A stretch of 40,557 bases of DNA from a virus: positions 1-40,557 of IMG/VR virus record IMGVR_UViG_3300012931_000039. One strand, written 5' to 3'. Under the pieces are notes generated by a model. That model was given only the letters and a program-made list of their open reading frames with translations. It was not told where the DNA came from and did not search any database. This document shows positions 5,915-38,100 of this stretch, piece after piece (within the stretch, counting starts at the first letter, position 1; each line of letters starts with the position of its first letter). Position numbers and translations under genes: made by a program.

Positions 5915-6675
5915 GGGGCCACCCCCGGTCGCGCGCTGCGCAGCCCGGCCAACATCTCCAACTCGGCCACCATCTCCAACTCGGCAGTCCCTAACTCGGC
6001 GCGCAGCAACTCGTCGGCCTCCACCGGCTGGCCGTTGACCTGGGCAGCCGTCCAGAGGTTCTGCCCGCTTTTGACGTCCAGCACCAGCCGCCTGCTGCCC
6101 GCCAGGCGGAGTGCTGTACACGGGATACCACGCATCCGGTCGTCCATCGTGCCGTCCAAGCCCCGGTGTTTGCCCCGCCGCACGCGCCACAGCGACCAGC
6201 CCAACCCACCCAAAACCTCCGCGCTGACCAGCCTACCCGTGCCAATCGGATGCCCGCAGCGCGCGGCGTCCGTGTAGCCTGGCCAGTAGCTTGTCTGGCG
6301 GGCCGCCGTGTCCAGGAAGTAGCAATCCAGCACGCCAGCGTAGGGGGCGCCGCAGGCCATGATCTGGAGGTACCAGGCGAAGGCCGCCGACCCGATCAGG
6401 TCGTCCGAGTCGAGCCGCAGCACGTAGTCGGCTCCCAAGTCGCGCGCCGCCCGTAGCCCGGCGTTGTGTTTGGCGGCCAGGGGCAAGTTTGGCACCAGTC
6501 GCACGTGTGCCCCGGCGTCCATGGCGATGTCGCGGTTGCGTGGGTCCTCGGGACTGCACAGGGCGACCACCTCGAACGCCGCCATCCTTCGCAGGCGGGC
6601 GAGGCCCAGCCAGTAAAGCCGGGAGACCGCTGGCCGGCCCCAGAAGGCCGTGACTACTACGAGCTTCAGCGCCAT
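5911..6675 (-). CDS. Glycosyltransferase, GT-A type
   Basis: A 254-aa protein starting at ATG 6675, whose start overlaps the end of the methyltransferase-like gene by 10 nt. The N-terminus (ALKLVVVTAFWGRPAVSRLY) and the D-x-D region 'LRLDSDDLIGSAAFAW' near 100-115 mark a GT-A glycosyltransferase. 'AAKHNAGLRAARDLGADYV' just before is the usual helix that precedes the metal site. The C-terminal ~60 residues are helical and Glu/Leu-rich. The sugar donor and acceptor cannot be read from the sequence. Confidence 0.75.
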   Translation of the reverse strand: MALKLVVVTAFWGRPAVSRLYWLGLARLRRMAAFEVVALCSPEDPRNRDIAMDAGAHVRLVPNLPLAAKHNAGLRAARDLGADYVLRLDSDDLIGSAAFAWYLQIMACGAPYAGVLDCYFLDTAARQTSYWPGYTDAARCGHPIGTGRLVSAEVLGGLGWSLWRVRRGKHRGLDGTMDDRMRGIPCTALRLAGSRRLVLDVKSGQNLWTAAQVNGQPVEADELLRAELGTAELEMVAELEMLAGLRSARPGVAP

Positions 6676-7202
6676 ACCACCGCCTGGTCCCGCATCACCG
6701 CGGCGTCCAGGTGCCCGGGCAGCCGCGCGGCGATCTTCTGGAGCGACACGTTCTGCCACTCGGGCCGCGGCCGCGGCGTGCCGAAGTCGTGCACGTCATC
6801 CACCAGCACCAGGTCATGGTACCGCCGGGTGGCGACGGCCCGTAACTCGTCCCAGAGCGGGAACCCCGCCGGGTCCCCGCGGCCCGCGACCTCGCGGCTC
6901 TGGAACCAGTGGGCGTCCAGGTAGAACACGGCCGGCTCGGCGATGCGTTGGCACAGCGGGGGCAGCACTACCCGGCTGTCGCCCAGGTGGAAGTGCAGGT
7001 CGGGCGTGGCGCCGTGCTCCCGCACGGCCTGGTCGTACAAGGGACGTGACAGCTCGATGCTGTGGACCACGGGGAACACGCTGCGCGCCAGCAGGGTGGT
7101 CTTGGCGTGGAACGTGCCCGTCTCCACGAAGACCCGGATGCCCGCGTATTGCGGGTGGCGAGCGCGTATCGCCTCGAGGTCGCGGAGCCGGAAATTGGCC
7201 AT
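6666..7202 (-). CDS. Class I SAM-dependent methyltransferase-like protein
   Basis: A 178-aa protein starting at ATG 7202 in a TGATG overlap with the preceding glycosyltransferase. 'VFVETGTFHAKTTLLA' around 25-40 is a motif-I-like glycine turn. 'HSIELS' near 48-53 matches the acidic post-I strand, and 'VFYLDAHW' near 93 the motif-IV strand. Such proteins are often annotated as FkbM- or class I-type methyltransferases beside glycosyltransferases, and may methylate a transferred sugar. The assignment is from fold motifs only. Confidence 0.6.
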   Translation of the reverse strand: MANFRLRDLEAIRARHPQYAGIRVFVETGTFHAKTTLLARSVFPVVHSIELSRPLYDQAVREHGATPDLHFHLGDSRVVLPPLCQRIAEPAVFYLDAHWFQSREVAGRGDPAGFPLWDELRAVATRRYHDLVLVDDVHDFGTPRPRPEWQNVSLQKIAARLPGHLDAAVMRDQAVVWR

Positions 7203-9088
7203 CAGCCCCGCCCTCCGATGCGTAGTACGGTGCGCCAGTGCACCGCGGCGTCCAGCAGGTCCAGGTACCGCAACGCCACCGCCGCCTCGTCGTGGTAGGC
7301 GGTCACGTACCGCAGCGCCCGGGCGCCCGCCTCCGCCCGTGCGGTATCGTCCTGGGCGTAGTGGGCCAGCGCCTCCTCGAGGTCTGCCGGGGTGCGCACC
7401 AGACGATAGGGCGCGTCGGCCTCGGGCCCCAACCAGCGGCGGAACCGATCGTAGACGTACTCGTCGCCCGCCAGTACGGGGATCCCCATGGCCGCCGCCT
7501 CCAAGCCCGAGCACTGGATCCCGAGGTCGAACGAGTCGAAGAACAGGTCGCACCGGGCCTTCGCCTGGAGGGCTTGGGCGTGGGGCATCTTCACCGTGAC
7601 CAGGGGTTCCACCGGCACGCCGCGCGCCCGGAGCCGCTCGCACACCGCCAGGAAGTCAGCCGTCCCCTTGATCTCCGGTTTCGAGGGCGAGTGTCCCACC
7701 AGTATCCGGCCCGGGTGCGGCCGGTAGGCGCGCGTGCGCAGCGCCTGGTACTCGGCCACCGGCACGGGGTTCGGCAGGTAATGGCGCCCGTCGCCGTAGC
7801 GCGTGAGGTCCCAGTTGCTGATGAGTCGCAACTGGGCCTGCTGGTCGGCCACGTTGAAGTAGCCGCTCATCCGGCGCAGGATGGTCCCGTGGTGATGGAT
7901 CACCGTCCACCGGGGCCGGCGGTCGCGCGGGATCACCGACAGCATGCCGTAGTCCAGGTGGCAGTGCGCCACGTCAGCCGCCTGCGCTAGCTGGGCCACG
8001 AGCGCCTCGTCGTACCCGTGGTCGAACTGCACCGGCCCGGCGAAGGGGTTGTCGTGAGTGCGGCGCACAAACGCCGAACTGTGGGGTGTGGTGACGTTCA
8101 ACCCCGTGTGCAGCCGGAACGCGACCAGCCCCGGGTCGTAAGGTGCCAGTTGGAGGACTCGGAGCGACTCGCGGCCGCCGAGCGAGCGGTCGGACATCTC
8201 GGTCCGTCCAGGCTCGGCCACGGCGGGTGTCTCCTGCTGGTATTGGGCGGTGGCGACGGCGGCTTTCGCCCGGATCCGTGCCGCTCCGCGACCCAGCATG
8301 CGTCGGTTCTCGATCCGTGCTTCGCACCAGGCGTGTCGCCAGCCGCGGCCGGCATACTGGTGCGTCGCCAGCAGGCGGTCGCCCGCGTAGAGCCAATGGT
8401 GTCGCCCACGGTACGCCAGGTCGAGCCTTGCTGCCACGCACCGCGGCTGTCCGTAGGTTCGGCGGTACAGCGTGTCGTTCTGTATCTCCAGCCAACCCAC
8501 GTCGCAACGCGGCAGCCGGCGCAGCGCGGCGCCGGCCGTCAGTACCTCGTCGGCGTCGATGATCAGACACAAGACCGGTCGGTCGGCCCCAGGCGACAGC
8601 GTGCCAGCCTCACGTAAGAGCGTGGTGCGTTTCTCCAGCTGCGAGGACCAGGCGCAATCCAGGATGATGAACTGCCCCGGCTCGCGCTCGGCCTTGGCCA
8701 CGTACTCCTTCAGGCCCTCCGTGCACGGGCCCCGCTCGACGGTGCCCCATGACCCATCGGCGACCACCGCTCGGTCCACGTGGGGAAGCCAGCTGGGCAA
8801 CGTCGCCTTGAGCGCCGGCAGGTCGTTCCAGATGCTCACACAGGCCACTACGTACCAGTGCGCCGCGATATCGGGCGTGGCGCGCAATTCCCGCCCGCTG
8901 AACCGAGTCCAGGTGTTGGCATCCTTGACCGCACGCAGGTCGTCGCTGGGCAGCAGCCGCACCAGTGGATGGTCGAGCCGGGCCAACCGCCTGGCTATAT
9001 CCGCCGGCAGGAGGAACCGGTCGCCTTGGTGGCGGATCGCGCCGCGGGCCGTAATCCGGTCCAGTGCTTCGACCCGCAAGAGGGGCAC
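7202..9088 (-). CDS. Bifunctional glycosyltransferase (GT-A + GT-B domains)
   Basis: A 628-aa protein that appears to fuse two glycosyltransferase folds. The first ~300 residues carry a GT-A-like start (ACVSIWNDLPALKATLPSWL) and an acidic metal site (CLIIDADEVL). From about 310 on, 'LRVLQLAPYDPGLVAFR', a 'TVIHHHGT' segment, 'ILVGHSPS' and the donor-site helix 'CSGLEAAAMGIPVLAGDE' are typical of GT4/GT1-type GT-B enzymes. I chose GTG 9088, which follows the upstream stop directly and has GGAGAG ahead of it; an upstream TTG at 9115 would add nine residues. The gene opens the sugar cassette that interrupts the head genes. Confidence 0.8.
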   Translation of the reverse strand: MPLLRVEALDRITARGAIRHQGDRFLLPADIARRLARLDHPLVRLLPSDDLRAVKDANTWTRFSGRELRATPDIAAHWYVVACVSIWNDLPALKATLPSWLPHVDRAVVADGSWGTVERGPCTEGLKEYVAKAEREPGQFIILDCAWSSQLEKRTTLLREAGTLSPGADRPVLCLIIDADEVLTAGAALRRLPRCDVGWLEIQNDTLYRRTYGQPRCVAARLDLAYRGRHHWLYAGDRLLATHQYAGRGWRHAWCEARIENRRMLGRGAARIRAKAAVATAQYQQETPAVAEPGRTEMSDRSLGGRESLRVLQLAPYDPGLVAFRLHTGLNVTTPHSSAFVRRTHDNPFAGPVQFDHGYDEALVAQLAQAADVAHCHLDYGMLSVIPRDRRPRWTVIHHHGTILRRMSGYFNVADQQAQLRLISNWDLTRYGDGRHYLPNPVPVAEYQALRTRAYRPHPGRILVGHSPSKPEIKGTADFLAVCERLRARGVPVEPLVTVKMPHAQALQAKARCDLFFDSFDLGIQCSGLEAAAMGIPVLAGDEYVYDRFRRWLGPEADAPYRLVRTPADLEEALAHYAQDDTARAEAGARALRYVTAYHDEAAVALRYLDLLDAAVHWRTVLRIGGRG

Positions 9089-9090
9089 GG

Positions 9091-9348
9091 TTAGCTCTCC
9101 GTCCGCGCGGGCCAATCCCAGGTTCCTTTGCCACCGTCGTGATCGCCCGGGCTCCCACGCTGTGGGACCGTCGCTTTGACCATGGGCTGCAAGGCGTAGT
9201 CCGCGAAACAGGTGAGGTTCACGACCGCCGGACCCCAGACGCGCGTGATGATGGCCGCCACCGGCCCCAGGGCGTTGCCGTTCGCCCCGGCCGGGTCATC
9301 TGGCCCGCTGGGGAAGTAGTGCACGATGCGACCGACCGTGGGGACCAT
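9091..9348 (-). CDS. Small phage protein of the head operon
   Basis: An 85-aa protein starting at ATG 9348, downstream of the capsid gene and a strong hairpin. The sequence has a recognisable phage style: 'GRIVHYFPSG', then 'GPVAAIITRVW', 'VNLTCFADYA' and a C-terminal 'GTWDWPAR'. I have seen this pattern in many phage hypothetical proteins, but I know of no assigned function. No membrane segment is visible. The position after the capsid gene would allow a role in head decoration or completion, though that is only a guess. Confidence 0.6.
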   Translation of the reverse strand: MVPTVGRIVHYFPSGPDDPAGANGNALGPVAAIITRVWGPAVVNLTCFADYALQPMVKATVPQRGSPGDHDGGKGTWDWPARTES

Positions 9349-9447: not shown

Positions 9448-10998
9448 TTAGGAGGAGGCCGCGTCGCCGAGCACCACGAACGGCGAGTGCTCGTCCACCT
9501 TGACGCCGGCCGGGGCCTTGTAGGCAAACGTCCCGGTCGGGATGGGGATCCCACCGCCCCGGGCGAAAGCCCGGTAAGTGGTGATGTCCTTGACGAACTC
9601 GACGTGAATCGAGCTCTCGATGGTCAGCTGGGTCCGCACCGCCGCCGCGTAGAACGCGGGGTTGATGAGGGCCAGGTCCGACTGGACGCCCAGCGTGGGC
9701 TGGAGGTCGTTGACCCGGAGCGGGTAGCCCAACAGGCTCATCCCCGGCTTGCCCGCCAGGTTCTGGAGGAAGGTGACGAGCGTGTTGCCGCTCAGGTGCA
9801 GGGCGAAGATCTGCTCCATCACCCGGCGCGAGCAGGACCAGTAGGACCCCGGCCCGTGCGTGTGGCGCGTCCACAGCCGGAAGATGTCGGTGGTGTCCAC
9901 GGACATGGTGGTGTCGCGGTGCACCACGAGCAGCGCCCCGTTGTTGGCATGCAGCGCCGCCAGCGGCTGCGCCGTGCCCGAGCCCACGACCGTCATGTAG
10001 TCGTTGAACTCGTTGATGATCTGCCCGCCGACCAGCGTGGCCACGCTCTGCGGCCCCTGGCCGGTGAAGTCGTCGGCGGCCGTCTCGTCCCCGATCTTCC
10101 AGATGGCCGCCCACTTGTAGACCGTCAGCAGCCGCTGCTCGAAGCTCGGCTCCCGGGTTCCCTTCTCCGCGCCCTCGCCGACGATGCTGATGGCGGCGAT
10201 ACCGGCCATGGGCCGGGTCTTGCCGCCAGTCGCGTCGGTCTGCACGACGTAGGGGATCCGCAGCGTCCGGCCGGTGACGGCGTACTTCTGCGCGTACTGG
10301 AGGATGCCCTCCTGTACGTTCGGCACCATGAAGATGCTGGGCACCTGCTGCAACGGGAGCAGGAACTCGCCGCCGCTAGCGTCGCCCGTGGTGCCGATGA
10401 TGGTCCGGGCGCTCAACTCGCCGGGGAACAGCTCCCGGGCCAGGTCGTGCGCCTCGCGGATCAGGGCGTTCTTCTTCTCGCTCCTGGTCTGGAAGCGGCC
10501 CGACCCGTACTTCACAAACTCGTCCACCGAGCCGAACGCCCTCATCACCCGGGCGTGTAGGCCGTCAATCCGCTCCTTGACGGTCACGACCTCGGGCTCG
10601 TCCGAATCGGGGCCAGCCAGGCGCAGGGCCGTGTCCCCGCCCTGCCGGTTGATCTCGTCCTGGGGGGTGATCTCCAGCACCTTGGCGGCCCTAAACTCCA
10701 GGTCGTTGATCGCCGCGGCGGCCTTCTCCACCTCGTCCTTGGTCATCTTGATCGCGGGGTCGAGCATCTTCTTGCGTAACTCGTCGGCCTCGGCACGCCA
10801 TTTGGTCGCCTGGTCGTAGGCGGCACGGTTCTTGATCACGGGGGGCGTGGCGGTGGCGGCGGCCGTCAGGGCGAGGAGCCCGGCGACGGGGCCGCCAGCC
10901 AGCAGGGGCATGGGGTCAACCCAGCCCAGGTGGGTACAGGCCAGGGCGGCGATCAGCGCCAGACAGAACGCCGAGGCCCAGATGGCAAACGTTTTCAC
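9448..10998 (-). CDS. Major capsid protein (HK97 fold) with hydrophobic N-terminal extension
   Basis: A 516-aa protein starting at GTG 10998 in a GTGA overlap with the prohead protease. The C-terminal ~300 residues read as an HK97-type capsid: 'TTGDASGGEFLLPLQQVPSI' opens the capsid domain and 'LINPAFYAAAVRTQLTIE' lies near the end. A helical delta-like region (about 60-120) precedes it, as expected when a protease is encoded upstream. Oddly, residues 1-55 form two hydrophobic stretches (IWASAFCLALIAALACTHLG and LLAGGPVAGLLALTAAATAT) like a signal or membrane anchor. A later start would remove them, but no better-supported one is seen. The extension may be removed by the protease. Confidence 0.85.
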   Translation of the reverse strand: MKTFAIWASAFCLALIAALACTHLGWVDPMPLLAGGPVAGLLALTAAATATPPVIKNRAAYDQATKWRAEADELRKKMLDPAIKMTKDEVEKAAAAINDLEFRAAKVLEITPQDEINRQGGDTALRLAGPDSDEPEVVTVKERIDGLHARVMRAFGSVDEFVKYGSGRFQTRSEKKNALIREAHDLARELFPGELSARTIIGTTGDASGGEFLLPLQQVPSIFMVPNVQEGILQYAQKYAVTGRTLRIPYVVQTDATGGKTRPMAGIAAISIVGEGAEKGTREPSFEQRLLTVYKWAAIWKIGDETAADDFTGQGPQSVATLVGGQIINEFNDYMTVVGSGTAQPLAALHANNGALLVVHRDTTMSVDTTDIFRLWTRHTHGPGSYWSCSRRVMEQIFALHLSGNTLVTFLQNLAGKPGMSLLGYPLRVNDLQPTLGVQSDLALINPAFYAAAVRTQLTIESSIHVEFVKDITTYRAFARGGGIPIPTGTFAYKAPAGVKVDEHSPFVVLGDAASS

Positions 10999-12056
10999 TT
11001 GCGCACTCCTGTGTCGAACGTGGATCGGAACGCGGCGACGCGCTCGTCCATGGTCGCCGCGGCGTCCTCCGCCATTGACGCGGGGGGCGAAGCTGGCTTC
11101 TCGGGGGTGGGCCCCGAGGCCGGCGGCTTGCCACCGTGGTCGTCCTGCGTGCGGACGTCGGTGAGGAACGCCTCCCGGTCCTCGGGCGCCAGCCGGTGCC
11201 ACAGGCCGCGCATGAAGGCCGCGAGGTCCAACTGGGAGCGCACCGCCATGACCTCGGCCCCGGGGACGGCGGCCAGGGGGGTGATGGTGCCCTCCATGAG
11301 CTCGATCTCTGTATAGGTGGCGACGTAGGTGTTCTCGCCGTCCACCGTCTCTTTCGTCAAGTCGGGCGCTTTGCGCTCCCGGAACCCGACGCTGAGGCCC
11401 GTGCTGGCCCCGGCGCCCAGGACCTTCTCCAGGTAGTCTTTCGCGGCCCGGCCGTCCGGCGTGTCGAAGATGTCGGCCCCCATGACCGCGTTGTCGCCGA
11501 CGTCCTCGAGCGTGCGCACCACGCCCACGTGCGTCCGGGCGTTGTACATGTGCATGCCGGAGCCGTCATAGGTCATGTTGATGAACAGCGGCACCCGGCC
11601 GGCGGGCACCTTCTCCGCCCGCGAGCGATCCATACAGCCGCGGGCGAAGCGCGTGCCGTAGCTGTCCACACGGTTGTAGGGCAGCAGCACGCCCGTGACC
11701 CGGCCGCAGATCCCTTTGGGCAGCGCGGCGCCGTCAGCCCGCATCTCGAGCTTAGTCTCCACGACCGCCATGCCGAACGGGTAGGCGCGCGGGCGCCGGC
11801 TCTCCTTCGCGGTGCGCTGCGCCTCGGGCGCGCTGTCGCCTTCGATCTGGCGTTTGATCACGGCACAGTAGGCCTCGGGGTCGCCCTTGTCGCTGTTCTG
11901 GGCCACACAGTCGGCGAAGTCGGCATACTCGCCAAAGGGGCGGGCCTTCATCTCATCGGTCAGGGCCCTCACGGCGTCCGCTCGGGCCTCGGGGCTCATG
12001 CCCGCCAGGGTCTCCGCCGCGCGCGCCATGCACTCCTGCCACAGCTCCGGTTTCAT
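10995..12056 (-). CDS. Prohead protease (HK97 family) with N-terminal extension
   Basis: A 353-aa protein starting 4 nt after the portal stop. The core (about 95-280) has typical HK97 prohead protease features: 'ICGRVTGVLLPYNRVDSYGT', 'VPLFINMTYDGSGMHMYNA' with a candidate catalytic His, and 'ASTGLSVGFRERK' containing the candidate serine. 'ITPLAAVPGAEVMAVRSQ' closes the domain. The first ~80 residues are a separate helical, Cys-containing region (FADCVAQNSDKGDPEAYCAV), and the C-terminus is Pro/Ala-rich, possibly a scaffold. It should mature the capsid protein encoded just downstream. Confidence 0.85.
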   Translation of the reverse strand: MKPELWQECMARAAETLAGMSPEARADAVRALTDEMKARPFGEYADFADCVAQNSDKGDPEAYCAVIKRQIEGDSAPEAQRTAKESRRPRAYPFGMAVVETKLEMRADGAALPKGICGRVTGVLLPYNRVDSYGTRFARGCMDRSRAEKVPAGRVPLFINMTYDGSGMHMYNARTHVGVVRTLEDVGDNAVMGADIFDTPDGRAAKDYLEKVLGAGASTGLSVGFRERKAPDLTKETVDGENTYVATYTEIELMEGTITPLAAVPGAEVMAVRSQLDLAAFMRGLWHRLAPEDREAFLTDVRTQDDHGGKPPASGPTPEKPASPPASMAEDAAATMDERVAAFRSTFDTGVRK

Positions 12057-18890: not shown

Positions 18891-19431
18891 AGCGCGCCCC
18901 GGCTTGCCAGAGGTACATGTAGCGCCGCAGGTCGAGCAGGTCATCCAGCACGCCGGCGGGGTCCCAAAGCTGGGCTTCCAACGCCCGCAGCAGCCCGCCG
19001 TGAGTGTCCATCTGGACCCGCATGCGGTCCCACTTGCGGATTCCCACCATGTAGGCCCCCACGCCACCCCGCCGGTACCAGCTGTCGCCGTAAGTGGTCT
19101 GGCGCGCCCGCAACACGGCCACGTCCCCTCCCAGTGCCAACCCGCATTCCGCACGGTAGTCCCAACACTGAAACGCCGTCAGCCACTGGCGCGCTTCCCG
19201 CACGTACGCCCGCACGGTCGGCTCCATGTCGAGGGCGTGAAAGATGTCCCAGCCGAACTCCCGCGCCGAGATGTCCACCCGGGTCATCAGTTCCACCAGC
19301 CATCGTTCCTCGAGTGAGGGGTGTCGGCGTTCCACCCATCGCCTGACCACCCGCTCGTCGGCACGGCACAGGATCTCTACACCGCGCAGGATGCGCTCGC
19401 CCGTGGGCAACAACTCGCGTTTATGTGGCAT
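18877..19431 (-). CDS. Nucleotide modification associated domain 1-like protein (Nmad1 / DUF1599)
   Basis: A 184-aa protein starting at ATG 19431 and overlapping the end of the hydroxymethylase gene by 11 nt. The C-terminal half has 'TTYGDSWYRRGGVGAYMVGI' (112-131), KWDR (133-136), then 'LDDLLDLRRYMYLW' (162-175). This follows the DUF1599 order of Y-G-x-x-W, a K-x-x-R helix and a D-D-L-x-D-x-x-x-Y helix. That family was named for frequent linkage with DNA base modification genes, which fits this neighbourhood. Its own activity is unknown; the N-terminal ~90 residues look like an added helical domain. Confidence 0.6.
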   Translation of the reverse strand: MPHKRELLPTGERILRGVEILCRADERVVRRWVERRHPSLEERWLVELMTRVDISAREFGWDIFHALDMEPTVRAYVREARQWLTAFQCWDYRAECGLALGGDVAVLRARQTTYGDSWYRRGGVGAYMVGIRKWDRMRVQMDTHGGLLRALEAQLWDPAGVLDDLLDLRRYMYLWQAGARCGLR

Positions 19432-20527
19432 CTTCGCCCACCGGCTCGCGGGGGGTTCCCGGCTGGTACCAGGCCTGGGGCACTTCGATACCGCGGTAGT
19501 GCCGTACCAACCATTCCCCGCAGGCCAAGCGCCAGTCAGTGGCCCGACACTGACGCACGTGTTCCAGCGCCAGCGCGACGTTCTCTCGCCGCACGTCCCA
19601 GGCCCGGCGCAACGGCTGGGCCACCTCGTAGAAGTAGGGGTAAGAGTAGCCTTCCCGATCCCACGCCGGGCCTAAGAACCGCATCAGGTCCAACTCCCAA
19701 TCGGCCGTCTTGAGCCCTAGGGAGATACCGCCGTAGAACAGCGGGTAGGGATGCACCCAGCCGAGCTCGTAGGGACAGGCGGTGCGGTTGACAAACTGCT
19801 CGGCGCCCCAACGCTCGCCCCACAGCGCGGCGTACACGTGGGCGTTGGCGGTGGCGAAGTGCAGGGCGCCCACGCCCAGGGGCACGCCGGCCCGCTCAGA
19901 GATCGCCTCGGCCAACCACTCTTGGAGCATGCTGAAGTGGACGACGTTCGCCCCAAACAGTCCCCAGATCAGGTCGTGCCCGCGCGCCGTGATTAAGAGG
20001 TCGAGCCGGTCGTCCACCAACCGGCCCCACTGGTGCGAGCGGACGGTGGGCACCACGGCCAGGTTGCACGGCACGTCGCGCCCCGGGCCAGGGCCGTCGC
20101 ACCGCGGGTCCCACATGCCCAACACCACGCGCCGCTCCGTGGGGTCGGCCGCCAACCGTTCGGCCGCGGCCAACAGCTGGTCCCGGCCGAAGTGATGACG
20201 CCAGCGGTGCCCGTAGGCCCCCGCGAAGGTCACGCCGTCGTCCGAGTAGTCGGTCATGCGGCGGTTGAACTGTGCCAGCCAGGCCACGTCGTTCGAGCCG
20301 GCGAGCATCCACAACCCCTCCATCAGGTGGAAGAAGGGGTTGGCGTCCCGCACGGCGTCAAACAGCACCCGCTCCCGCGGGCGCTCCACCTCGGTGAACA
20401 GCGGGCCGGGCAGCCGCAAGACGCCACCATTCCGCGAGCCGTCTGGCTGGGCGTAGGCGTGCAACTCGATCCGCGCCACGGCGAACACCTCGTTCACGTT
20501 GCGTCCGCGTACCGTGTGCATGGGCAT
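19421..20527 (-). CDS. Thymidylate-synthase-fold dUMP hydroxymethylase (probable)
   Basis: A 368-aa protein of the TS / pyrimidine hydroxymethylase superfamily. Key positions are visible: 'FFHLMEGLWMLAG' with E70; 'RRVVLGMWDP' (132-141); 'RDVPCNLAVV' with catalytic Cys154; and 'DLLITARGHDLIWGLFGANV' with R182 and N194. The Asn in 'GAN' is the residue that reads dUMP in thymidylate synthases, where dCMP hydroxymethylases carry Asp. The substrate is therefore probably dUMP. Linkage with 5-hmdU kinase and transferase genes argues that the product is hydroxymethyl-dUMP, but plain dTMP synthesis cannot be excluded. ATG 20527 follows an AGGAGA site. Confidence 0.75.
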   Translation of the reverse strand: MPMHTVRGRNVNEVFAVARIELHAYAQPDGSRNGGVLRLPGPLFTEVERPRERVLFDAVRDANPFFHLMEGLWMLAGSNDVAWLAQFNRRMTDYSDDGVTFAGAYGHRWRHHFGRDQLLAAAERLAADPTERRVVLGMWDPRCDGPGPGRDVPCNLAVVPTVRSHQWGRLVDDRLDLLITARGHDLIWGLFGANVVHFSMLQEWLAEAISERAGVPLGVGALHFATANAHVYAALWGERWGAEQFVNRTACPYELGWVHPYPLFYGGISLGLKTADWELDLMRFLGPAWDREGYSYPYFYEVAQPLRRAWDVRRENVALALEHVRQCRATDWRLACGEWLVRHYRGIEVPQAWYQPGTPREPVGEDAT

Positions 20528-20548: not shown

Positions 20549-21493
20549 TTAGGCCGGCAGCGTACCTGCCGGCATGAACAGCTGGCGCGGGAGGCCCTGG
20601 CCGAGCCGGGCGCGCTCGTACTTGTCCATCTCGCAAAGTGAGTGCTCGATGTCGCGCATCTCCAACGGCCGCGGTACCCAGGACGCGAGCGGCGAACCGG
20701 CGCCGTTGGCTACGGCCAGCAACTCGCGCATCTCACCCACGGGGTCAGCCGGCCGCACGTGCAGCGGCCGTCCGTGGACCCGGTTCAGGCCGCGCACGGC
20801 GCCGAGCCCCGCATGGGCCCAGGTCATGATGTCCGGCGCCCGACACAGAAGATCCGTGTGGCGCAAGTCGCTGACCACTTCATACGCCGTGAACCCCCCG
20901 CCCCAGCCTGGTAGTGCGCTCAACCAACACCAGAGTGCCAATAGGGTGCCGCACAACGACGGGGGGTCAAGACCCCACGCCAGCGTCTGGGCAATCCCGT
21001 TCAGCACCGTGTAGACGGTGTAGTAGGGCTTGTTGTTGTCCCGCGGGGCGCTCGGGTCTCGTCGCTGGACATCACCCCGCACCACGTAGGCCCCGGTGTA
21101 GACCTTCTCCCCGCGACGTGCCCGGTCGCGCATGATGTGGTAGACACGCCCGGGGTCCCAAGGCCAGGGGTATCCGATGGCCTCGAGCGTCGGCGGCCAG
21201 TTGATCGCCCGGGCGACCGCCATCGCGAACAGGACCGAGGGGTCGCCGCGATGCGGCTCGCGCCAGTGCTCCCGTATCCAGATGGTCGTTCGGTCCAGCT
21301 CGCGGAACACGTTGCAGAAACGGTAGCGTGCCAGGATCGGATCGTCCGTGTAGGCGTAACGCAGTGGCTGCCCGTTACCTATGACCGCCTCTCGTGCCGC
21401 TGGCGAGAGGTAATCCTGCCCTGCTACCCAGCGCCGGCGCAGGTAGATCGCATGCCGCTCGTTGATCCAGTCCCACAGGGCTTGGGCGTTCAC
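20549..21493 (-). CDS. 5-hmdU DNA kinase helical partner / DNA-glycosylase-like (HMUDK_hel type)
   Basis: A 314-aa helical protein starting at GTG 21493 in a GTGA overlap with the P-loop kinase. 'RFCNVFRELDRTTIWIREHW' (58-77), followed by 'FAMAVARAINWPPTLEAIG', matches the conserved start of the helical domain that accompanies 5-hydroxymethyl-dU DNA kinases and the related thymine pyrophosphorylase-like families. In several known phages this domain is fused to the kinase; here it is a separate gene translated directly after it. It probably binds DNA around the modified base. Assigned from memory of the family pattern. Confidence 0.65.
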   Translation of the reverse strand: MNAQALWDWINERHAIYLRRRWVAGQDYLSPAAREAVIGNGQPLRYAYTDDPILARYRFCNVFRELDRTTIWIREHWREPHRGDPSVLFAMAVARAINWPPTLEAIGYPWPWDPGRVYHIMRDRARRGEKVYTGAYVVRGDVQRRDPSAPRDNNKPYYTVYTVLNGIAQTLAWGLDPPSLCGTLLALWCWLSALPGWGGGFTAYEVVSDLRHTDLLCRAPDIMTWAHAGLGAVRGLNRVHGRPLHVRPADPVGEMRELLAVANGAGSPLASWVPRPLEMRDIEHSLCEMDKYERARLGQGLPRQLFMPAGTLPA

Positions 21494-22140
21494 GGGCGGC
21501 CGTCCCGGAGTATGTCCAGGAGGCCCGGCAGCGGGTCGCCGTGCGGCAGCCACCGGACCCGGCATCCATAGCTCTCGAGTTTTAGGGCGTTCTTCCTGGT
21601 GCCGCGCCACTTGTCCTCAGTGTTGGCAGGGTTCAACGGCTTGGAGACTCCCCGGGCATCCCGTCTTGCTTGGATGCGCGCCACACACAGCTCCAGTGGC
21701 GTGTCCAAAAAGGCGAAGGTGATGCCGCCGTATCCCGCCAGCCGGCGGTCGAGCTCGGCGTATCGCTTGGCGCTGACGCTCACCAGCAGCCCCTCAAACA
21801 GCACATCACCTTCGGGTGCCCAGCGTGCCACCCGGGCACAGATCTCGTCCTGCGTGGGCACCCTGTCGCAGCCACCGCACTCGTTCTCGTAGCTGCCGAT
21901 CACGAACGTCGGCCGCGGGCCGGCGCACCGGTAGGCCAGCGGCACCTGTCGCGGCGCACGCCCCGGTCGCCAGGGGTCAAGCCCGAATCCCAGCGTGAGC
22001 GACTCCGCCGGCTGGCCGTACACCTCGGGAAACGGGCCAGCCGGCGAGTACAGCGGGGCCCAGCCCCCACAGTGATCACGGTAGGCCCGCACCAGCCAGC
22101 TCTTGCCGCTGCCCGAGGTGCCCCGGATGTTGACGATCAC
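21490..22140 (-). CDS. P-loop 5-hydroxymethyl-dU DNA kinase
   Basis: A 216-aa P-loop kinase starting at ATG 22140, overlapping the upstream transferase gene by 4 nt. Walker A is GTSGSGKS (7-14) within 'MIVNIRGTSGSGKSWLVRAY', the characteristic opening of phage hmdU DNA kinases. 'PTFVIGSYENECGGCDRVPT' (77-96) contains a Cys pair, and 'GDVLFEGLLVS' and 'ITFAFLDTPLELCVARI' are the expected later strands. In characterised phages this enzyme places pyrophosphate on the 5-hydroxymethyl group in DNA, creating the leaving group that the amino acid transferase displaces. Confidence 0.75.
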   Translation of the reverse strand: MIVNIRGTSGSGKSWLVRAYRDHCGGWAPLYSPAGPFPEVYGQPAESLTLGFGLDPWRPGRAPRQVPLAYRCAGPRPTFVIGSYENECGGCDRVPTQDEICARVARWAPEGDVLFEGLLVSVSAKRYAELDRRLAGYGGITFAFLDTPLELCVARIQARRDARGVSKPLNPANTEDKWRGTRKNALKLESYGCRVRWLPHGDPLPGLLDILRDGRP

Positions 22141-23339
22141 AGCCCCAGCCCCTGCTGGAGCGCCGCCCGGGCCGCGGCGGTCCGCGCCTCACAGCCGTCG
22201 TTGAAGTCGTTGCGGAAGCAGTCCCAGTCGGCGTCCATCATGATCACCTGGCCGGTGTGGCGGTAGTGGTTCTGTTTCAGGGGGCACAGGCCGGGGTCGC
22301 CGGGGTTGTCCTCCAGCCGCAGTTGGGCGGGCAGGCGGTCCCGGCGTGCCTGCCAGAAGATGTTCAGATCCTCGTCCGGCCAGCGACGCTCCGCCCGCCG
22401 GATCCGGTCATGCAACATGTCCATGTAGACGTTCGGGTACCGCCGGTTTGGCCGGTGCCAGCTCTTGTACGTACACAAGGCTGACTCCAGCGTGAAGTAC
22501 CCCACGTCCTCTGCGCCCGGCGCCCCCACCACGATCCGACGCCGCGCCTCACGCAGCAAGGTCGCCGCCTCCTCGACCAGCCAGCCCAACACCTCCCGCG
22601 TGTACTGGCCGGCGAACCCCGTGGGGTTGCTCTCGTGCCAGTCCAGGTCGTCACGCCCCAGCACCTTGGCCAGCCCGTTGCGGTGCGATTTGCTGCCCTC
22701 CATGTCTTCCAAGAACAACTGGTTGCACTCCAACGGCAGGCCCATGATGCGCAGGTACTCCAGGTAGCTGAACGTGCTCAACCGGCCGAAGCTGAAGAAG
22801 TCGCGCCGCACCGCAGCCCAGACCGCCCGGAAGTTGGCTCGGGGGTCGGAGCTCCCGCACAGGCGGGCGAAGTAGTCCGCCTGGGCGCCCCGGGTCAGCA
22901 TCCGGTAACAGGCCACGCTGGCCACGAAGTCGCCCTTCTGATGCCGGCGGTCGGTGTCGAACTCCAGCCGCGGGTACTCCCGGCCCCACCAGTCCTCGAG
23001 GCCCGGGCTGTTCGGCGTGGGAAAGCGCCGATGGATCAGGAGGCTCGTGATGGGGTGCTGGGTATTGCCGTTGAGGAAAGCAAACCACAGGGCCTGCTCG
23101 TCGTCCCAGGCCAGGTTCTGCCGTAGGTACGGCATGAGCAGGTACACCCCACCCGGGTGCGAACGGTGCCGCAGGTGAAACTCGTAGAAGCGCAGGAACA
23201 CCTCACGCCGGTACTCCGGTCGCCGGAAGTCTTGGCCCACCCGGAGATCCGCCATTTCCGGTACCCCGGTCAGCGTGGCGTAGCGCCCCGCGGTGTCGTG
23301 CGACACCAGCGCCGGAGGCGCGTACCACAAGTCGCTCAC
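22137..23339 (-). CDS. Amino acid:DNA transferase-like protein (thymine hypermodification)
   Basis: A 400-aa protein starting at GTG 23339 in a GTGA overlap with the PLP enzyme, with GGGGAGGC ahead of it. 'FLRFYEFHLRHRSHPGGVYL' (48-67), then 'EQALWFAFLNGNTQHPITSL' (81-100) is the signature I associate with phage amino acid:DNA transferases (ADDT, of the thymine pyrophosphorylase / DNA-glycosylase-like group). Later conserved-looking parts include 'DFFSFGRLSTFSYLEYLRIM' and a final CPLKQNHYRHTGQ. The expected reaction replaces pyrophosphate on activated hmdU in DNA with an amino acid. Which amino acid is not evident. Confidence 0.65.
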   Translation of the reverse strand: MSDLWYAPPALVSHDTAGRYATLTGVPEMADLRVGQDFRRPEYRREVFLRFYEFHLRHRSHPGGVYLLMPYLRQNLAWDDEQALWFAFLNGNTQHPITSLLIHRRFPTPNSPGLEDWWGREYPRLEFDTDRRHQKGDFVASVACYRMLTRGAQADYFARLCGSSDPRANFRAVWAAVRRDFFSFGRLSTFSYLEYLRIMGLPLECNQLFLEDMEGSKSHRNGLAKVLGRDDLDWHESNPTGFAGQYTREVLGWLVEEAATLLREARRRIVVGAPGAEDVGYFTLESALCTYKSWHRPNRRYPNVYMDMLHDRIRRAERRWPDEDLNIFWQARRDRLPAQLRLEDNPGDPGLCPLKQNHYRHTGQVIMMDADWDCFRNDFNDGCEARTAAARAALQQGLGL

Positions 23340-24388
23340 CGAGCCTCCCCGGCCACGACCCAATAGAGCCATGGGCGCTGGCGATGGTGCGCGAGAACGG
23401 CCGGGTGATCCTGAGTGTACAGCCAGCTCTTGGCCTCGTACCGCGGGTGCAGCCGCAGGGCCGTGCCGTCGGCCAGGGGGATCGAGGCGGGACGCAGCTG
23501 CTCGTAGGTGGTGTAGCCGTGTTGGCACAGCCGGCACTCGTGGTTCCCGCAACCGCCATACACGTCGTGATGCCAGAGCTCGTAGCCTCCGCTCGGCGGC
23601 AGGCCCCACCGCTCGCGGAACGACTCGGCTGCCCACCCCGCACCCCGCCAGCAGACCGGGTGATACCAGTCGGCCAGCCGCTCGCCGACCGCCTGGCCGA
23701 TGACCTCGAGCCGCTCGTAGATCATCTCGGGGTAGCGAGACCCATCGTGTCCCACGCCCATCACCACTACCCGCCGCAACGACGGGAGCGGCCAACGGGT
23801 CAAGCCGTACAGCACCGAGGTCACACTGGTGCACGAACCGGCGCAGATCACCAGTGTCTCCACGTCGGGTGGCAGGTTCTGCACCTGCTGGGCGCCCCAA
23901 CGGTGAAACGCCTCCAATTCGGCGGCGCTGTGGTGCCGGTGATCCAGGGTGATGTTCGTCTCCACATGCAACCAGCTCTTCGCCGCAGCGTGCGTTCGGG
24001 CTCGAGCGTTCAACGTGCCAGCGTAGCCGGGGTTCACGGTGACCACGTCGGCCGTCTCCGGTACGCCGGCCGGCCGCCCGCGCCCGCCCGTGAACAGCGT
24101 ACAGGGCACGCCCAGCGACCGCGCACACTCGGCCACCATCTGGTGTTGTGGACTCTCCCGCACCGCCCCGGCGGTTACGCCCGCTATCGGCGTCCGGGCC
24201 ATCAGCCACATCAACTGGCGCAGCTTCGCCCCGTTCACCCCGGCGCCGGGGAACGGCCGGAACAGGTCCTCCCGCTTCACGTAGCCACCCGGCCCGAGCA
24301 TCTGCATCACCGGGGTCAACTCACCCATTCGCCTCATCCAGTCGGCCACCACTGCCGGATCCCATCCGATCAGACCCCCACTCGTCAT
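23336..24388 (-). CDS. Fold type II PLP-dependent enzyme (ACC deaminase / D-Cys desulfhydrase-like)
   Basis: A 350-aa protein starting at ATG 24388 in an ATGA overlap with the zinc-ribbon gene. 'GYVKREDLFRPFPGAGVNGA' followed by KLRQL (35-60) mirrors the KRED...GxK-x-RKL segment of fold type II PLP enzymes, with K55 the likely PLP lysine. 'GVTAGAVRESPQHQMVAECA' (70-89) matches the substrate/cofactor loop, and 'LVICAGSCTSVTSVLYGL' the phosphate-binding Gly/Ser loop. Near the C-terminus a Cys/His group (CGNHECRLCQHG) may bind metal. It precedes the transferase gene, so it may process the amino acid on DNA or supply it. Confidence 0.65.
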   Translation of the reverse strand: MTSGGLIGWDPAVVADWMRRMGELTPVMQMLGPGGYVKREDLFRPFPGAGVNGAKLRQLMWLMARTPIAGVTAGAVRESPQHQMVAECARSLGVPCTLFTGGRGRPAGVPETADVVTVNPGYAGTLNARARTHAAAKSWLHVETNITLDHRHHSAAELEAFHRWGAQQVQNLPPDVETLVICAGSCTSVTSVLYGLTRWPLPSLRRVVVMGVGHDGSRYPEMIYERLEVIGQAVGERLADWYHPVCWRGAGWAAESFRERWGLPPSGGYELWHHDVYGGCGNHECRLCQHGYTTYEQLRPASIPLADGTALRLHPRYEAKSWLYTQDHPAVLAHHRQRPWLYWVVAGEAR

Positions 24389-31538: not shown

Positions 31539-32896
31539 GCCATGTCTACTACAACGACAATGAGCCGTTTGTCGCCCAGTGGTTGCGGAACCTGATCGCG
31601 GCGGGCCACCTGCCCGCTGGAGACGTGGATGAGCGGAGCATCACCGAAGTCCAACCCGACGACGTGCGCGGCTACACCCAATGCCACTTCTTCGCTGGCA
31701 TTGGCGGCTGGCCTCTCGCGCTCCAGCTCGCCGCTTGGGGCGACCGACCTATTTGGACCGGCTCCTGCCCCTGCCAACCCTTCTCCGCGGCGGGCAAAGG
31801 GCAAGCCGGCGCTGACGCACGGCATCTCTGGCCAGCGTGGTTTCGGCTCATCCGCGAGTGCCGCCCTGAGCGAGTCTTTGGCGAGCAGGTTGCAAACGCA
31901 ACTGGGCACGGCTGGCTCGACCTTGTGGCGACAGACCTGGAAGCGGAGGCGTACACCGTTGGGTCGGTTGAACTGGGCGCACACAGCGTCGGGGCTCCGC
32001 ACCAACGGCAACGGCTCTGGTTCGTGGCCGAGTCCCGATGCCCAGAACATGCGCCCTGGAGACTCACCCCGGACGCTGACGCCGGAACGCATGGCGAGCG
32101 GCAGGACCAAGCCAGCGGGAGCGAGCCTGCATCATGCGGCCCAACTGGCGACGTGGCCGACGCCGAACGCGATCCCCGAAACGCGGGGCGGATTGCAAAC
32201 GAGCCCCGAGGGCGCGATGAAGCGGCGAGCGGCGGGCCATGCGGTGAACCTGGACGATGCGGCCCAATTGACGGCCTGGACGACGCCGCAGGCCCACGAC
32301 GCGACGGCGCGGGGCAAGGGCCAGAAGCCGAAGCATGGGACGAAGCACGGGTGCGCCGACCTGAACGCGGACGCGGTTTTGGCTGGCTGGCCGAGCCCGA
32401 TGGCAGGAACCCCTGCGACGGAGCGGTACAACGAAGCGGGCAACACGGACAGCAGCCGCAAGACGGTGGACCTCGCCAGTTGGGCAACCCCGCGGCTGGA
32501 GGACGGGGAGAGCGCGGGGATGCGCCACGCCCGCCAGACGGCGGACACGCTCTCCGCGCAGGCGGGGCAGGATGTGGGGAGTTGGCCGAGCCCGAATACG
32601 CGGGACCATCACGCACAGGGGGCGACCCACAACCCGAAGGCGCAATCATCCTCGCTGGCGACCATCGCTCAAAAGAAAGCGCCTCCCCTTGGGATGCCTA
32701 TCTCTGGCTCCCCTGCCGCGACGGGAAAGCCCGCCCGATTCCTGCTGAACCCGCGCTTTTCCCTCTGGTTGATGGGCTACCCAACCGCGTGGGCCTCCTG
32801 CGGGGAGCGGGTAACGCGATCAACCCGCAGACGGCAGCGGCGTTTGTGAGGGCCTACATGGACTGTATCGACCGGGCGGACCGGGGGCCACGGTGA
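31535..32896 (+). CDS. DNA cytosine-C5 methyltransferase
   Basis: A 453-aa protein starting at GTG 31535 in a GTGA overlap. Motif I is FAGIGG (53-58), motif IV is 'GSCPCQPFSAAGKG' with catalytic Cys80, motif VI reads GEQVA in place of the usual ENV, and motif VIII is QRQRLWFV (157-164). The C-terminus has 'CRDGKARPIPAEPALF' and 'RVGLLRGAGNAINPQTAA' (motif X). Between about 170 and 390 lies an Ala/Gly/Arg/Asp-rich region with repeated 'ADAE/AEPE' elements in place of an ordinary target recognition domain. That stretch is also open in the +1 frame, which encodes its own conserved-looking motifs. Confidence 0.85.
   Translation: MSHVYYNDNEPFVAQWLRNLIAAGHLPAGDVDERSITEVQPDDVRGYTQCHFFAGIGGWPLALQLAAWGDRPIWTGSCPCQPFSAAGKGQAGADARHLWPAWFRLIRECRPERVFGEQVANATGHGWLDLVATDLEAEAYTVGSVELGAHSVGAPHQRQRLWFVAESRCPEHAPWRLTPDADAGTHGERQDQASGSEPASCGPTGDVADAERDPRNAGRIANEPRGRDEAASGGPCGEPGRCGPIDGLDDAAGPRRDGAGQGPEAEAWDEARVRRPERGRGFGWLAEPDGRNPCDGAVQRSGQHGQQPQDGGPRQLGNPAAGGRGERGDAPRPPDGGHALRAGGAGCGELAEPEYAGPSRTGGDPQPEGAIILAGDHRSKESASPWDAYLWLPCRDGKARPIPAEPALFPLVDGLPNRVGLLRGAGNAINPQTAAAFVRAYMDCIDRADRGPR
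31629..32849 (+). CDS. Overlapping +1-frame ORF nested in the cytosine methyltransferase gene
   Basis: A 406-codon frame lies wholly inside the methyltransferase gene, with ATG 31629 six bases after GGAG. It does not look like random shadow. It has repeated W-P/T/A/S-(T/S)-P units (SWPSPDAQ, TWPTPNAIP, AWTTPQAHD, GWPSPMAGTP, SWATPRL, SWPSPNTRD). The N-terminal part has 'DLFGPAPAPANPSPR' and 'GSTLWRQTWKRRRTPLGRL', and the C-terminus 'LNPRFSLWLMGYPTAW'. I have met the same motif set in phage proteins annotated as methyltransferase-related. The sequence alone suggests two proteins are selected from one stretch. Function unknown. Confidence 0.5.
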   Translation: MSGASPKSNPTTCAATPNATSSLALAAGLSRSSSPLGATDLFGPAPAPANPSPRRAKGKPALTHGISGQRGFGSSASAALSESLASRLQTQLGTAGSTLWRQTWKRRRTPLGRLNWAHTASGLRTNGNGSGSWPSPDAQNMRPGDSPRTLTPERMASGRTKPAGASLHHAAQLATWPTPNAIPETRGGLQTSPEGAMKRRAAGHAVNLDDAAQLTAWTTPQAHDATARGKGQKPKHGTKHGCADLNADAVLAGWPSPMAGTPATERYNEAGNTDSSRKTVDLASWATPRLEDGESAGMRHARQTADTLSAQAGQDVGSWPSPNTRDHHAQGATHNPKAQSSSLATIAQKKAPPLGMPISGSPAATGKPARFLLNPRFSLWLMGYPTAWASCGERVTRSTRRRQRRL

Positions 32897-34656: not shown

Positions 34657-35189
34657 ATATCCCCCTTGGCAGTCTTGAGCGCATCCCGCAGTGAGGACAT
34701 CGCCGTGTCCAGCCGCAGTTCCAGGCGGTTCATCCTGCTCTCCAGCGCCGCCACTTGGGGATCGTAGCGGCCATAGAGCTGATCGGTCAGCTTGGAGCTG
34801 AGTCCGTTCAGATCTTCGCGCAGCCGAGCCACGCTGGCCAGCACACCTCTGAGACTGGCCGTCGCTTCGCCGAACTCCCGGCTGTCGCTCTCGCCGTGAT
34901 CCACCACCATGCGTAAGAGAGCATCGACACGCTGAGTGATCTCGCTGCGCAGCGCCTCGCGAGCGGCGTTCGCAGCGATCTCTATCCGCTCCAGCCGGCG
35001 CTCTGTGCGTAGCTGGAGCAGCCAGGTGACGAGCCCGAGCACGCCAAACGCGCCCAACGTATATTCCAGGTTGTTCGGCCCGATGCCCGGCGGCAGTTGC
35101 GCCAGAAGCCGGCCGCCGGGGATCGCCACGAGAGCCAAGATCGGCAGGCCAGCCGCTCGCCGCCAGAAGCGCCGCCACGGCTGGCTCAT
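34653..35189 (-). CDS. Membrane-anchored coiled-coil protein
   Basis: A 178-aa protein starting at ATG 35189 in an ATGA overlap with the giant tail gene. Two hydrophobic segments (AAGLPILALVAIPGGRLLAQ, about 12-31, and 'YTLGAFGVLGLVTWLLQL', about 43-60) precede a long heptad-like region (62-175) such as 'RRLERIEIAANAAREALR' and 'LRLDTAMSSLRDALKTAK'. The position beside the lysis genes suggests a holin-associated or spanin-like role; no lipobox is visible. Confidence 0.6.
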   Translation of the reverse strand: MSQPWRRFWRRAAGLPILALVAIPGGRLLAQLPPGIGPNNLEYTLGAFGVLGLVTWLLQLRTERRLERIEIAANAAREALRSEITQRVDALLRMVVDHGESDSREFGEATASLRGVLASVARLREDLNGLSSKLTDQLYGRYDPQVAALESRMNRLELRLDTAMSSLRDALKTAKGDM

Positions 35190-38100
35190 GTGGCAATCAG
35201 CCCATGCGCGCGGGCGCGGGCGAGCCAGTCGTTGAGTCGCGCCATGGTGCTGGCGGGATCGGTGGCGTCCGCCACGGCGGCGCCCTGCGCGCCGACCACT
35301 TGCGTCGTGTTGACCCGGTACACCTTCCCGCTGCTCACATCCACGTCGTCCGCGAACAGGTGCTTGGCGCTCGCCCCCACGGCGGTATAGGTCACCAGCC
35401 CGGCGTCGGAGATCGTCACGTCGAGCCGGTTGGAGGCGTCGTACCCGAAGGAGGGGTTCTTCCAGGGGAGCGCCGTGGTCCCCAGCGTGAGGAGGGCGGC
35501 ACTCTCTGGCACGATGGCGGTGGCCCCCAGCCGCATCTTGCCCGAGGACCCCGCAACACCGAAGGCCATCTCATCGTTCGCCGCAACGTATTGGATAAAC
35601 CCCTTCAGAGTCGGCGTGGTGTCATAGAAACCGACGAACGTATTCCCGCCCGCCGTCGCGCGGACCAGGGAGAGGGCCGCCCCATCGTTCGTGGCGGTGA
35701 GCGCCCCCAGGCTCAATGACCCCCAATTGTCGCTGGTGTTGAGTAGGTTGATGTTGCTGACGCTCGTGCCCTGCAAGCGCAATTCCCCCGCGACGTTGCC
35801 GAGCACCACCGCAAAGCCCGACGTGGCCTTGACCGTCGTCGCCGTGAGCGCGCCCATCGCAACGGCGTGACCCTGGAAGTCGGCGGCGCCTGTCGCGGCA
35901 ATCGTGAGACGGATGGTGGCGTTCGTTCCGAATTGCAGAGGTTGATTTGATAGCACTCCGAGGAAACCGGCGTATGCTGTTCCCCCGCTGAATAGGGCTC
36001 CGCCGGTGCTCCGATCCACGCCCCAGAACAGATCGCCCGAGTTGTTAACGAGTCGTCCGAAGGCGGCTTGCGTGCCAGTCACCGGCGACAGGTAAATCAG
36101 CCCGGTATTGGCATTGCTGCTACCCTGCACCAGGGCATTGACGCCTAGGCTGGTGCCCAAAATAGCCTGACTCGCAGCGATACTGGCGGCAAAGGTCGCA
36201 GTCTGGTCTGCATTCAGCGTCAGAGCTTCGACCAATCCCGCGCCGTTGGCGGTGCGGAAATGCAGTTGGGCGCCAGTCACATCCCCGGTATCGAGATAGA
36301 CGCTCCCCGCAATTCCGGCGCCACCCGCCCGCTCGTTGCCGATGAGTTGGAGGACCGCCCCGCGCGTGCTGCCGAACGCCCCACCACCAGAGAGCCGTAG
36401 CACGTTCGTGTCGGCACCATCACTCGTGGACGCAACAAGATCGAACGGATTGCTACCATAGACGAAAGAACCGCCCGACACCGTGAGCCCCGCCTGCGCG
36501 GTGAGGAGACCGGCGACGATCAAGGCGTCATCGGTCTTGAGGGTGTCGGCCGCACTGCGGTAGAGGTTGGTATCCACGGCGGCGACGCCGCCAGCGCCCC
36601 ACTCCATCTTGCCGCTGGCGTAGAGTTGGTACCGCTGCGTGGCGTCGCCGGTGACCCGAGTGCCCAGGACCACATCGGTGGCGAGGCCGCCCAGCAGGTT
36701 GTACTGGCCCTCCTGGAGGTCGCCGGGGACGACGTCGGCCGCGAGCACCGTGTCCCAGTCGGGGGCGCCGGCCGTGGCGCCGTCCCCCACCTGACGCCAG
36801 AACTTCCGGGTCGTGCTGACGTTGCCCGCCACCGCCGCCCAGGCGCCGGCCGTCCCGTAGAGCGTGTCCCCTTCGGCTGGGGGGCTGCCGGTCACTGTGG
36901 CGCCGCTAAACGATCCGCTCAAGGCGTCGTACTCTACGCCAGCCGGACTGCTGATCTCGGAGAGCATCAGGAGCGACCCACTGCCGCCCAGCACACCCAG
37001 GAAGTGGAGGTGCGCCTTCAGGTCCCAATTGGCGTCCAGTTGGGCGGCGAACGAGATGCTGTCAATCTGGTTGTGCTTCTGCCCCACGCTGTAGGTTTTG
37101 ACGCCCACCTGCGTCCAGTTGGTACTCGCCGGACCGTCGTTCTTCCAGAGGGTCAACTCCATCAGGGTGCCGGCCAAACTCTGGGAATTGACCATGTAAG
37201 AGACGGTAAAGGTCGTCTCGATCGGCGTAGCATCTTCCAGGTTCGAGAAGGCTTCCTCCCCCTCACTATCCAAGAGCACGACGCTCTCCGCGCCGTTCAA
37301 GGAGGCGGCCCAGCCGTCTTTGACGTGGGTCGTGGTGAGCCCGGCGAACCCCCCGCCGGCCACGAAGCTGATCCGCTGTTTCCCCAGGTCGATGGATTCG
37401 GCGCCAGCCCCAGCCGCCTCCTCGTAGGCCAAGACCGACACGTAGGCCGTTTCGCCGTCCGAGATGGCAAGCAGCGTGCCACTCACCGCGACGCCCGCCT
37501 CATCGGTATCCAGGGCCGTCTCGGCGCGCACCGCCGCCGCGTCGGGGAAGACGCTGCTGTCGTCGGGATCGGTATCGACCGCGGCGGCGATCTTTACCGA
37601 GCCGCCGCCCCGCGTCATGACCGTCGCCCGCACGGCGCCCGAGGGATCCTGAAACAGCTGGACCGTGCTCACGGTGGGGATGCTACACGCCTTGAGTAGG
37701 CCGGGCATGACGCTGACCACGGCCGTGTAGGCACTCGCCGTCGCCCCCGGCCGCACATGCCGCGCCCGCAGGTAGCGCAGCTTCCCATCCACCGGGGCCG
37801 ACGTCTCCCAGCGGGTGAGGCCGCTCACCGCCGTGGGTACCGTCTGCTGGAGCGTATAGGCCCCCGGGATGCCCGAGCCGACCGCGGTTTCCACCGCCAT
37901 CTCGACTTCGATGGCCGAGGGGACCACCGCCCCCTGGATACAGAGCCCGATCGTCGAGTGCCAGGAGAAGATGGTCTCCGGGCTACCGAGGCCACAGAAG
38001 GCCGACGCGCCGTAGGGCGCGGGGAGCGTGGGCACCGCTCCGGGCACGGTGAACGACATTTCGGTCGTTGTGCTCACGCCGTGGAACGGCGCGTCTTCGG

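Follow-up and report, generated by a model that had tools for sequence, protein, structure and literature searches.

The stretch of DNA analysed here (the window) is a 40,557-bp virus record from IMG/VR with a GC content of 0.69, and it carries terminase, portal, and head genes. The gene of interest, P0001, occupies positions 23336 to 24388 of the minus strand, has an ATG start, and encodes a 350-aa protein which we annotate as a fold type II PLP enzyme, predicted to decarboxylate an amino acid carried by 5-hmdU in DNA. The ORF is a genuine gene: its family matches lie far above chance, and its third-position GC of 0.85 is codon-like. The protein contains the motifs KRED (residues 38 to 41), GAKLRQ (residues 53 to 58, including Lys55), and GSCTS (residues 184 to 188). 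Because the stop codon overlaps the GTG of the adjacent transferase gene (GTGA, 4 bp) and the start codon likewise overlaps the end of the upstream ORF (ATGA, 4 bp), P0001 is coupled on both sides.

That the coupled gene encodes a transferase, as noted in the initial annotation, was borne out by domain analysis. The product of this gene (P0002; positions 22137 to 23339, minus strand) matched PF18724 (ADDT, formerly aGPT-Pplase2; E = 1e-15), identifying it as an amino acid:DNA transferase. Three further genes of the minus strand follow. The first (positions 21490 to 22140) encodes a P-loop kinase, probably the catalytic part of a 5-hmdU DNA kinase (AAA_33, with a weak match to PF18748, E = 0.002); the second (positions 20549 to 21610) encodes the 5-hmdU DNA kinase helical domain protein (PF18723, formerly aGPT-Pplase1, E = 2e-35), and the two adjoin each other again in relatives. 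The third (positions 19421 to 20527) encodes a thymidylate-synthase homologue (PF00303, E = 2e-11; phrog_5131, E = 1e-83), the probable dUMP hydroxymethylase, a role assigned from pathway context. The transferase, kinase, helical-domain, and thymidylate-synthase genes, together with the phage genes, therefore indicate a phage with a thymidine-hypermodification cassette. In PHROGs the P-loop kinase falls in phrog_800, named "terminase small subunit"; the name is probably misleading, and the context is that of a DNA base kinase. A second DNA-modifying gene of this phage, a DNA methyltransferase homologue (phrog_1008, E = 6e-21), lies at positions 31629 to 32849 on the plus strand, and a 1,762-aa ORF at positions 35186 to 40474 on the minus strand shows a weak C-terminal match to the head fiber family phrog_20838 (E = 7e-5).

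The class of P0001 is barely detectable by single-sequence search (PALP E = 0.037, below the Pfam PALP cut-off). phmmer against PDB sequences gave chance-level matches only, there was no match to TIGR01274 (ACC deaminase) at E<=0.1 or 0.01, and a BFVD search returned little. A PHROGs profile search matched P0001 to phrog_3650 (E = 5e-45) and to phrog_7093 (E = 5e-10), and a profile of the family reached ACC deaminases at E = 5e-10 and D-cysteine desulfhydrases at E = 2e-6. An AlphaFold2 model built from a 48-sequence alignment (pLDDT 91, pTM 0.90) was then compared with solved structures, which it matched at Z 22 over 270 residues. It gave a Z score of 22.3 to 1j0a, an ACC deaminase homologue, of about 22 to D-cysteine desulfhydrase, and of about 20 to ACC deaminase; serine racemase also matched, the desulfhydrase/ACC deaminase group being nearer by Z. 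Judged by this model and the profile matches, P0001 is a fold type II protein and a predicted PLP enzyme of the ACC deaminase/D-cysteine desulfhydrase group, as initially proposed, and it is expected to bind PLP. No mismatch with fold type II was apparent.

Residue conservation was scored over 67 phage relatives, using an alignment in which the numbering of the bacterial enzymes reproduces the published residues. Lys55 (positions 24224 to 24226), the predicted Schiff-base lysine, corresponds to Lys51 in both ACC deaminase and D-cysteine desulfhydrase; none of the 67 relatives has a substitution there, and G184 and S185 are likewise invariant. In the bacterial enzymes, Ser78 and the backbone of Asn79 and His80 hold the carboxylate of the substrate (PMC3344862). 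The corresponding loop of P0001 is Ser79-Pro80-Gln81 (positions 24146 to 24154), where S79 aligns with Ser78, the loop is Ser-Asn-Gln/His in ACC deaminase and D-cysteine desulfhydrase, and the Asn79 position is proline in 67/67 relatives. Proline has no backbone NH, so the carboxylate would no longer be held at this point and would be free to leave. Tyr317-Glu318 (positions 23435 to 23440) aligns with Tyr294-Glu295 of ACC deaminase and with Tyr287-Thr288 of D-cysteine desulfhydrase, and V345 aligns with Leu in the former and Thr315 in the latter. Glu318 is kept in all 67 relatives, and the N1-threonine position of the desulfhydrase is Val or Ile in every one of them. ACC deaminase bonds pyridine N1 through a glutamate where the desulfhydrase uses a threonine; with a carboxylate at this position electrons should be withdrawn more strongly, and a quinonoid could be stabilised (PMC3344862). 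The retained Glu318, the missing desulfhydrase threonines, and Pro80 all suit decarboxylation as read from the alignment. The Tyr-Glu pair alone does not show decarboxylation, because ACC deaminase, which is no decarboxylase, has the same pair.

In order to place P0001 among phage proteins, relatives were collected and compared by profile and tree. tblastn detected homologues in 342 phage records, mostly from phages of Salmonella, Vibrio, Klebsiella, and Escherichia (those whose taxonomy was seen being Ackermannviridae), including a single homologue, Vi01_182, in Salmonella phage ViI. A scan of IMG/VR with the P0001 protein alone found nothing; an alignment query did find relatives. phrog_3650 includes P0001, Vi01_182 (E = 2.5e-241), and MONT_41 of Glutamicibacter phage Montesquieu, and the PLP enzyme of Pseudomonas phage M6 belongs to phrog_7093. 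A test profile of the family, built without ViI or M6 sequences, scored Vi01_182 at 424 bits, ACC deaminase at 35, the M6 protein at 29, and Escherichia coli DcyD at 19. P0001 and the ViI protein grouped in a 19-row clade with support of 97/98. P0001 itself is divergent (about 30-41% identity to relatives, on a long branch), and an AU test gave a borderline result (p = 0.059) against placing it with bacterial ACCD/DcyD. We also tried the M6 enzyme as a member of this clade; it sits on a very long branch and its placement in the trees is unsure, so M6 is used below as an analogy only.

The gene neighborhoods of the IMG/VR relatives support the role in DNA tailoring that the initial annotation had suggested. 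The PLP gene adjoins the transferase gene in most loci, and the two are fused in 9 contigs. One of these (L086, positions 5098 to 8388, plus strand) has a single 1,096-aa ORF comprised of 5-hmdU DNA kinase 2 (PF18747, E = 5e-22), PLP enzyme, and transferase, and the same contig contains thymidylate-synthase-like and kinase helical-domain genes. The remaining PLP-transferase fusions (L100, L109, L110, L115, L119, L120, L130, and L133) come from several metagenomes and are about 720 aa where complete; three were placed in the large tree, where they form a distinct branch. The triple fusion is strong sequence evidence that kinase, PLP enzyme, and transferase would act consecutively on the same DNA base. 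Transferases of the same branch were found without a detected PLP gene in 10 of 21 records tested, many of which may be fragments, although one is 173 kb. Four such loci were inspected (L123 3916-5247, L128 3817-5208, L140 3904-5232, and L162 3872-5278). A TET/JBP oxygenase (PF12851) is shown in L128 and L140, a similar gene occupies this place in L123 and L162, and a P-loop kinase then follows. The loci with the oxygenase probably use another route to 5-hmdU and make a different final product.

The reaction proposed for P0001 rests on the chemistry of phages with related enzymes. ViI DNA contains 5-(2-aminoethoxy)methyl-dU (5-NeOmdU), and M6 DNA contains 5-(2-aminoethyl)-dU (5-NedU) (PMC6449724). 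Both bases lack the carboxylate and correspond on paper to thymidine bearing an amino acid that has lost CO2; for ViI this amino acid would be O-linked serine. For M6, Lee et al. in 2022 reportedly described the base as C-linked glycine after radical SAM isomerisation, again minus CO2, and they are said to have assigned PLP-dependent decarboxylases to these pathways. The ViI and M6 genomes contain exactly one PALP-type match each, so that Vi01_182 is the sole fold type II PLP enzyme detected in ViI, and neither genome has a decarboxylase of PF00282 or PF02784, the two other decarboxylase families searched. The fold type II enzyme is therefore the best candidate decarboxylase in both phages.

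We propose the following pathway. The thymidylate-synthase-like hydroxymethylase would allow the phage to make 5-hmdU, which the kinase would phosphorylate in DNA. The transferase (positions 22137 to 23339) would swap the phosphate for an amino acid, most likely serine joined by its hydroxyl oxygen. The free amino group of this DNA-linked amino acid could then enter an external aldimine in the PLP enzyme, which would release the alpha-carboxylate as CO2; an aminoalkyl group would stay behind, and the base would probably be 5-(2-aminoethoxy)methyl-dU. We consider it likely, with good though not full confidence, that P0001 serves a thymidine-hypermodification pathway as its ViI-type PLP enzyme and removes CO2 from a DNA-linked amino acid, of which serine is the likeliest; both its action on DNA and the decarboxylation are inferred. 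A new tailoring step, raised as a candidate in the initial annotation, is not upheld, since homologues occur in phages whose known modified base lacks the amino-acid carboxylate. P0001 is instead a further member of a known DNA-modification pathway and most likely its decarboxylase.

Which amino acid is used can be predicted less firmly. A profile of the window transferase matched the ViI transferase (E = 2e-53). It did not match the presumed M6 transferase, which was assigned to positions 8406 to 9281 of the M6 sequence (L001) by position and by the cassette order in PMC9476957. A radical SAM gene (PF04055) is present once in M6 (positions 10189 to 11631), and PF04055 had no match in ViI or in the window, a record that may be incomplete. 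These comparisons therefore favor, at roughly even chances, a prediction of serine on 5-hmdU that is then decarboxylated to 5-NeOmdU. The amino acid could differ, because the window and ViI transferases share only 26% identity; the closest relatives of the former among named phages are in Mycobacterium phages (46%) and in Montesquieu (41%). If the decarboxylated amino acid is not serine, or is N- rather than O-linked, another aminoalkyl thymidine would result; this is a variant of the same decarboxylase model. It is a real but distinctly less probable outcome, given that transferase and PLP enzyme both fall in the ViI branch and that no radical SAM isomerase was found. One of the mycobacteriophage homologues is gene 3 of phage Zemanar (L014 1-3465, genes 1-4), annotated as hypothetical and 46% identical to the window transferase. 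Its neighbors are annotated as ParB-like, queuine tRNA-ribosyltransferase, and terminase small subunit, and genes 1-4 may be a hypermodification cassette under misleading names.

The Cys/His-rich segment near the C terminus that had been noted earlier is present in P0001 as the insert CGNHECRLCQH (residues 280 to 290; positions 23519 to 23551, minus strand), with cysteines at 280, 285, and 288. The insert is conserved in P0001, L016, L017, L018, and L024 (e.g., CGNCEKCKDGYC) and is absent from ViI-group proteins. As a general feature of the family it was rejected, the full motif occurring in 5 of 93 sequences. It could plausibly form a zinc knuckle. It is conceivable, if improbable, that in this subgroup (the window, L016, L017, L018, and L024) a metal knuckle docks on DNA or on the transferase and that the enzymes make an undescribed modified thymidine, by decarboxylation of a non-serine amino acid or by a PLP reaction on DNA other than decarboxylation.

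The initial annotation had favored elimination, ring opening, or racemisation over decarboxylation, a preference that the retained electron-sink glutamate and the altered carboxylate-holding loop argue against. If P0001 acted on the DNA-linked amino acid by alpha,beta-elimination, as an ammonia-lyase, or by ring opening, this would agree with its nearest solved structures, ACC deaminase and D-cysteine desulfhydrase, which catalyze such reactions with free amino acids, and with the Tyr-Glu pair shared with the former. We regard it as very unlikely: the desulfhydrase N1-threonines are absent and proline replaces Asn79 in all 67 relatives, the ViI product keeps the C-O-C-C-N chain and not the carboxylate (PMC6449724), and on O-seryl thymidine an elimination would cut the modification off the DNA. 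About equally unlikely is that P0001 acts ahead of the transferase, racemising a free amino acid or altering it in some other way, as the serine racemase match and the possibility that a fused enzyme feeds its substrate to the transferase might suggest, for the desulfhydrase/ACC deaminase group is nearer by Z, the ViI product needs a decarboxylation for which no other tested decarboxylase type was found in ViI, and some same-branch transferases occur in records lacking a PLP gene, which may themselves be fragments.

Phages shield their own DNA with amino-acid-derived thymidines. Placing P0001 in the ViI branch extends this chemistry to an uncultured phage of 69% GC and gives a concrete predicted product, 5-NeOmdU. 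The natural kinase-PLP-transferase fusions may serve as one-chain catalysts. If the decarboxylase model is true, the enzyme would combine the fold of ACC deaminase with a changed carboxylate loop and so represent a tractable change of reaction type within one fold.

Compared with known systems, P0001 shares with ACC deaminase the fold, the counterparts of Lys51, Ser78, Tyr294, and Glu295, and a hydrophobic residue at the position of desulfhydrase Thr315; it differs in the change of Asn79 to Pro, in its phage genomic context, and in having no TIGRFAM match. D-cysteine desulfhydrase has the same fold and the same lysine, serine, and tyrosine positions, but Thr288 is replaced by Glu318, Thr315 by Val345 (Val/Ile in the family), and Asn79 by Pro. 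The M6 enzyme (phrog_7093) resembles P0001 in being a fold type II protein in a thymidine-hypermodification cassette and in having the lysine, the tyrosine, and an acidic N1 residue (Asp in M6). The two are 27% identical over 218 aa, the window-family profile scores the M6 protein below ACC deaminase, and M6 has a radical SAM enzyme that was not found in the window. The SN1 cassette also includes a PLP gene, comparable to that of M6 (PMC9476957). In Montesquieu, MONT_41 (phrog_3650; annotated as amino cyclopropane-1-carboxylate deaminase) overlaps the transferase gene MONT_42 by 4 bp, although the order is reversed, with the transferase first, and the protein is divergent, with a loop of APA instead of SPQ. 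Vi01_182 shares with P0001 its phrog, its active-site residues, and its pathway, ViI also encoding a transferase, Vi01_199, by homology. The two PLP enzymes are 34% identical over 222 aa. Unlike Vi01_182, whose gene lies about 9 kb from that of its transferase and which has extra N- and C-terminal segments, P0001 has the Cys insert and is encoded by a gene directly coupled to its transferase gene.
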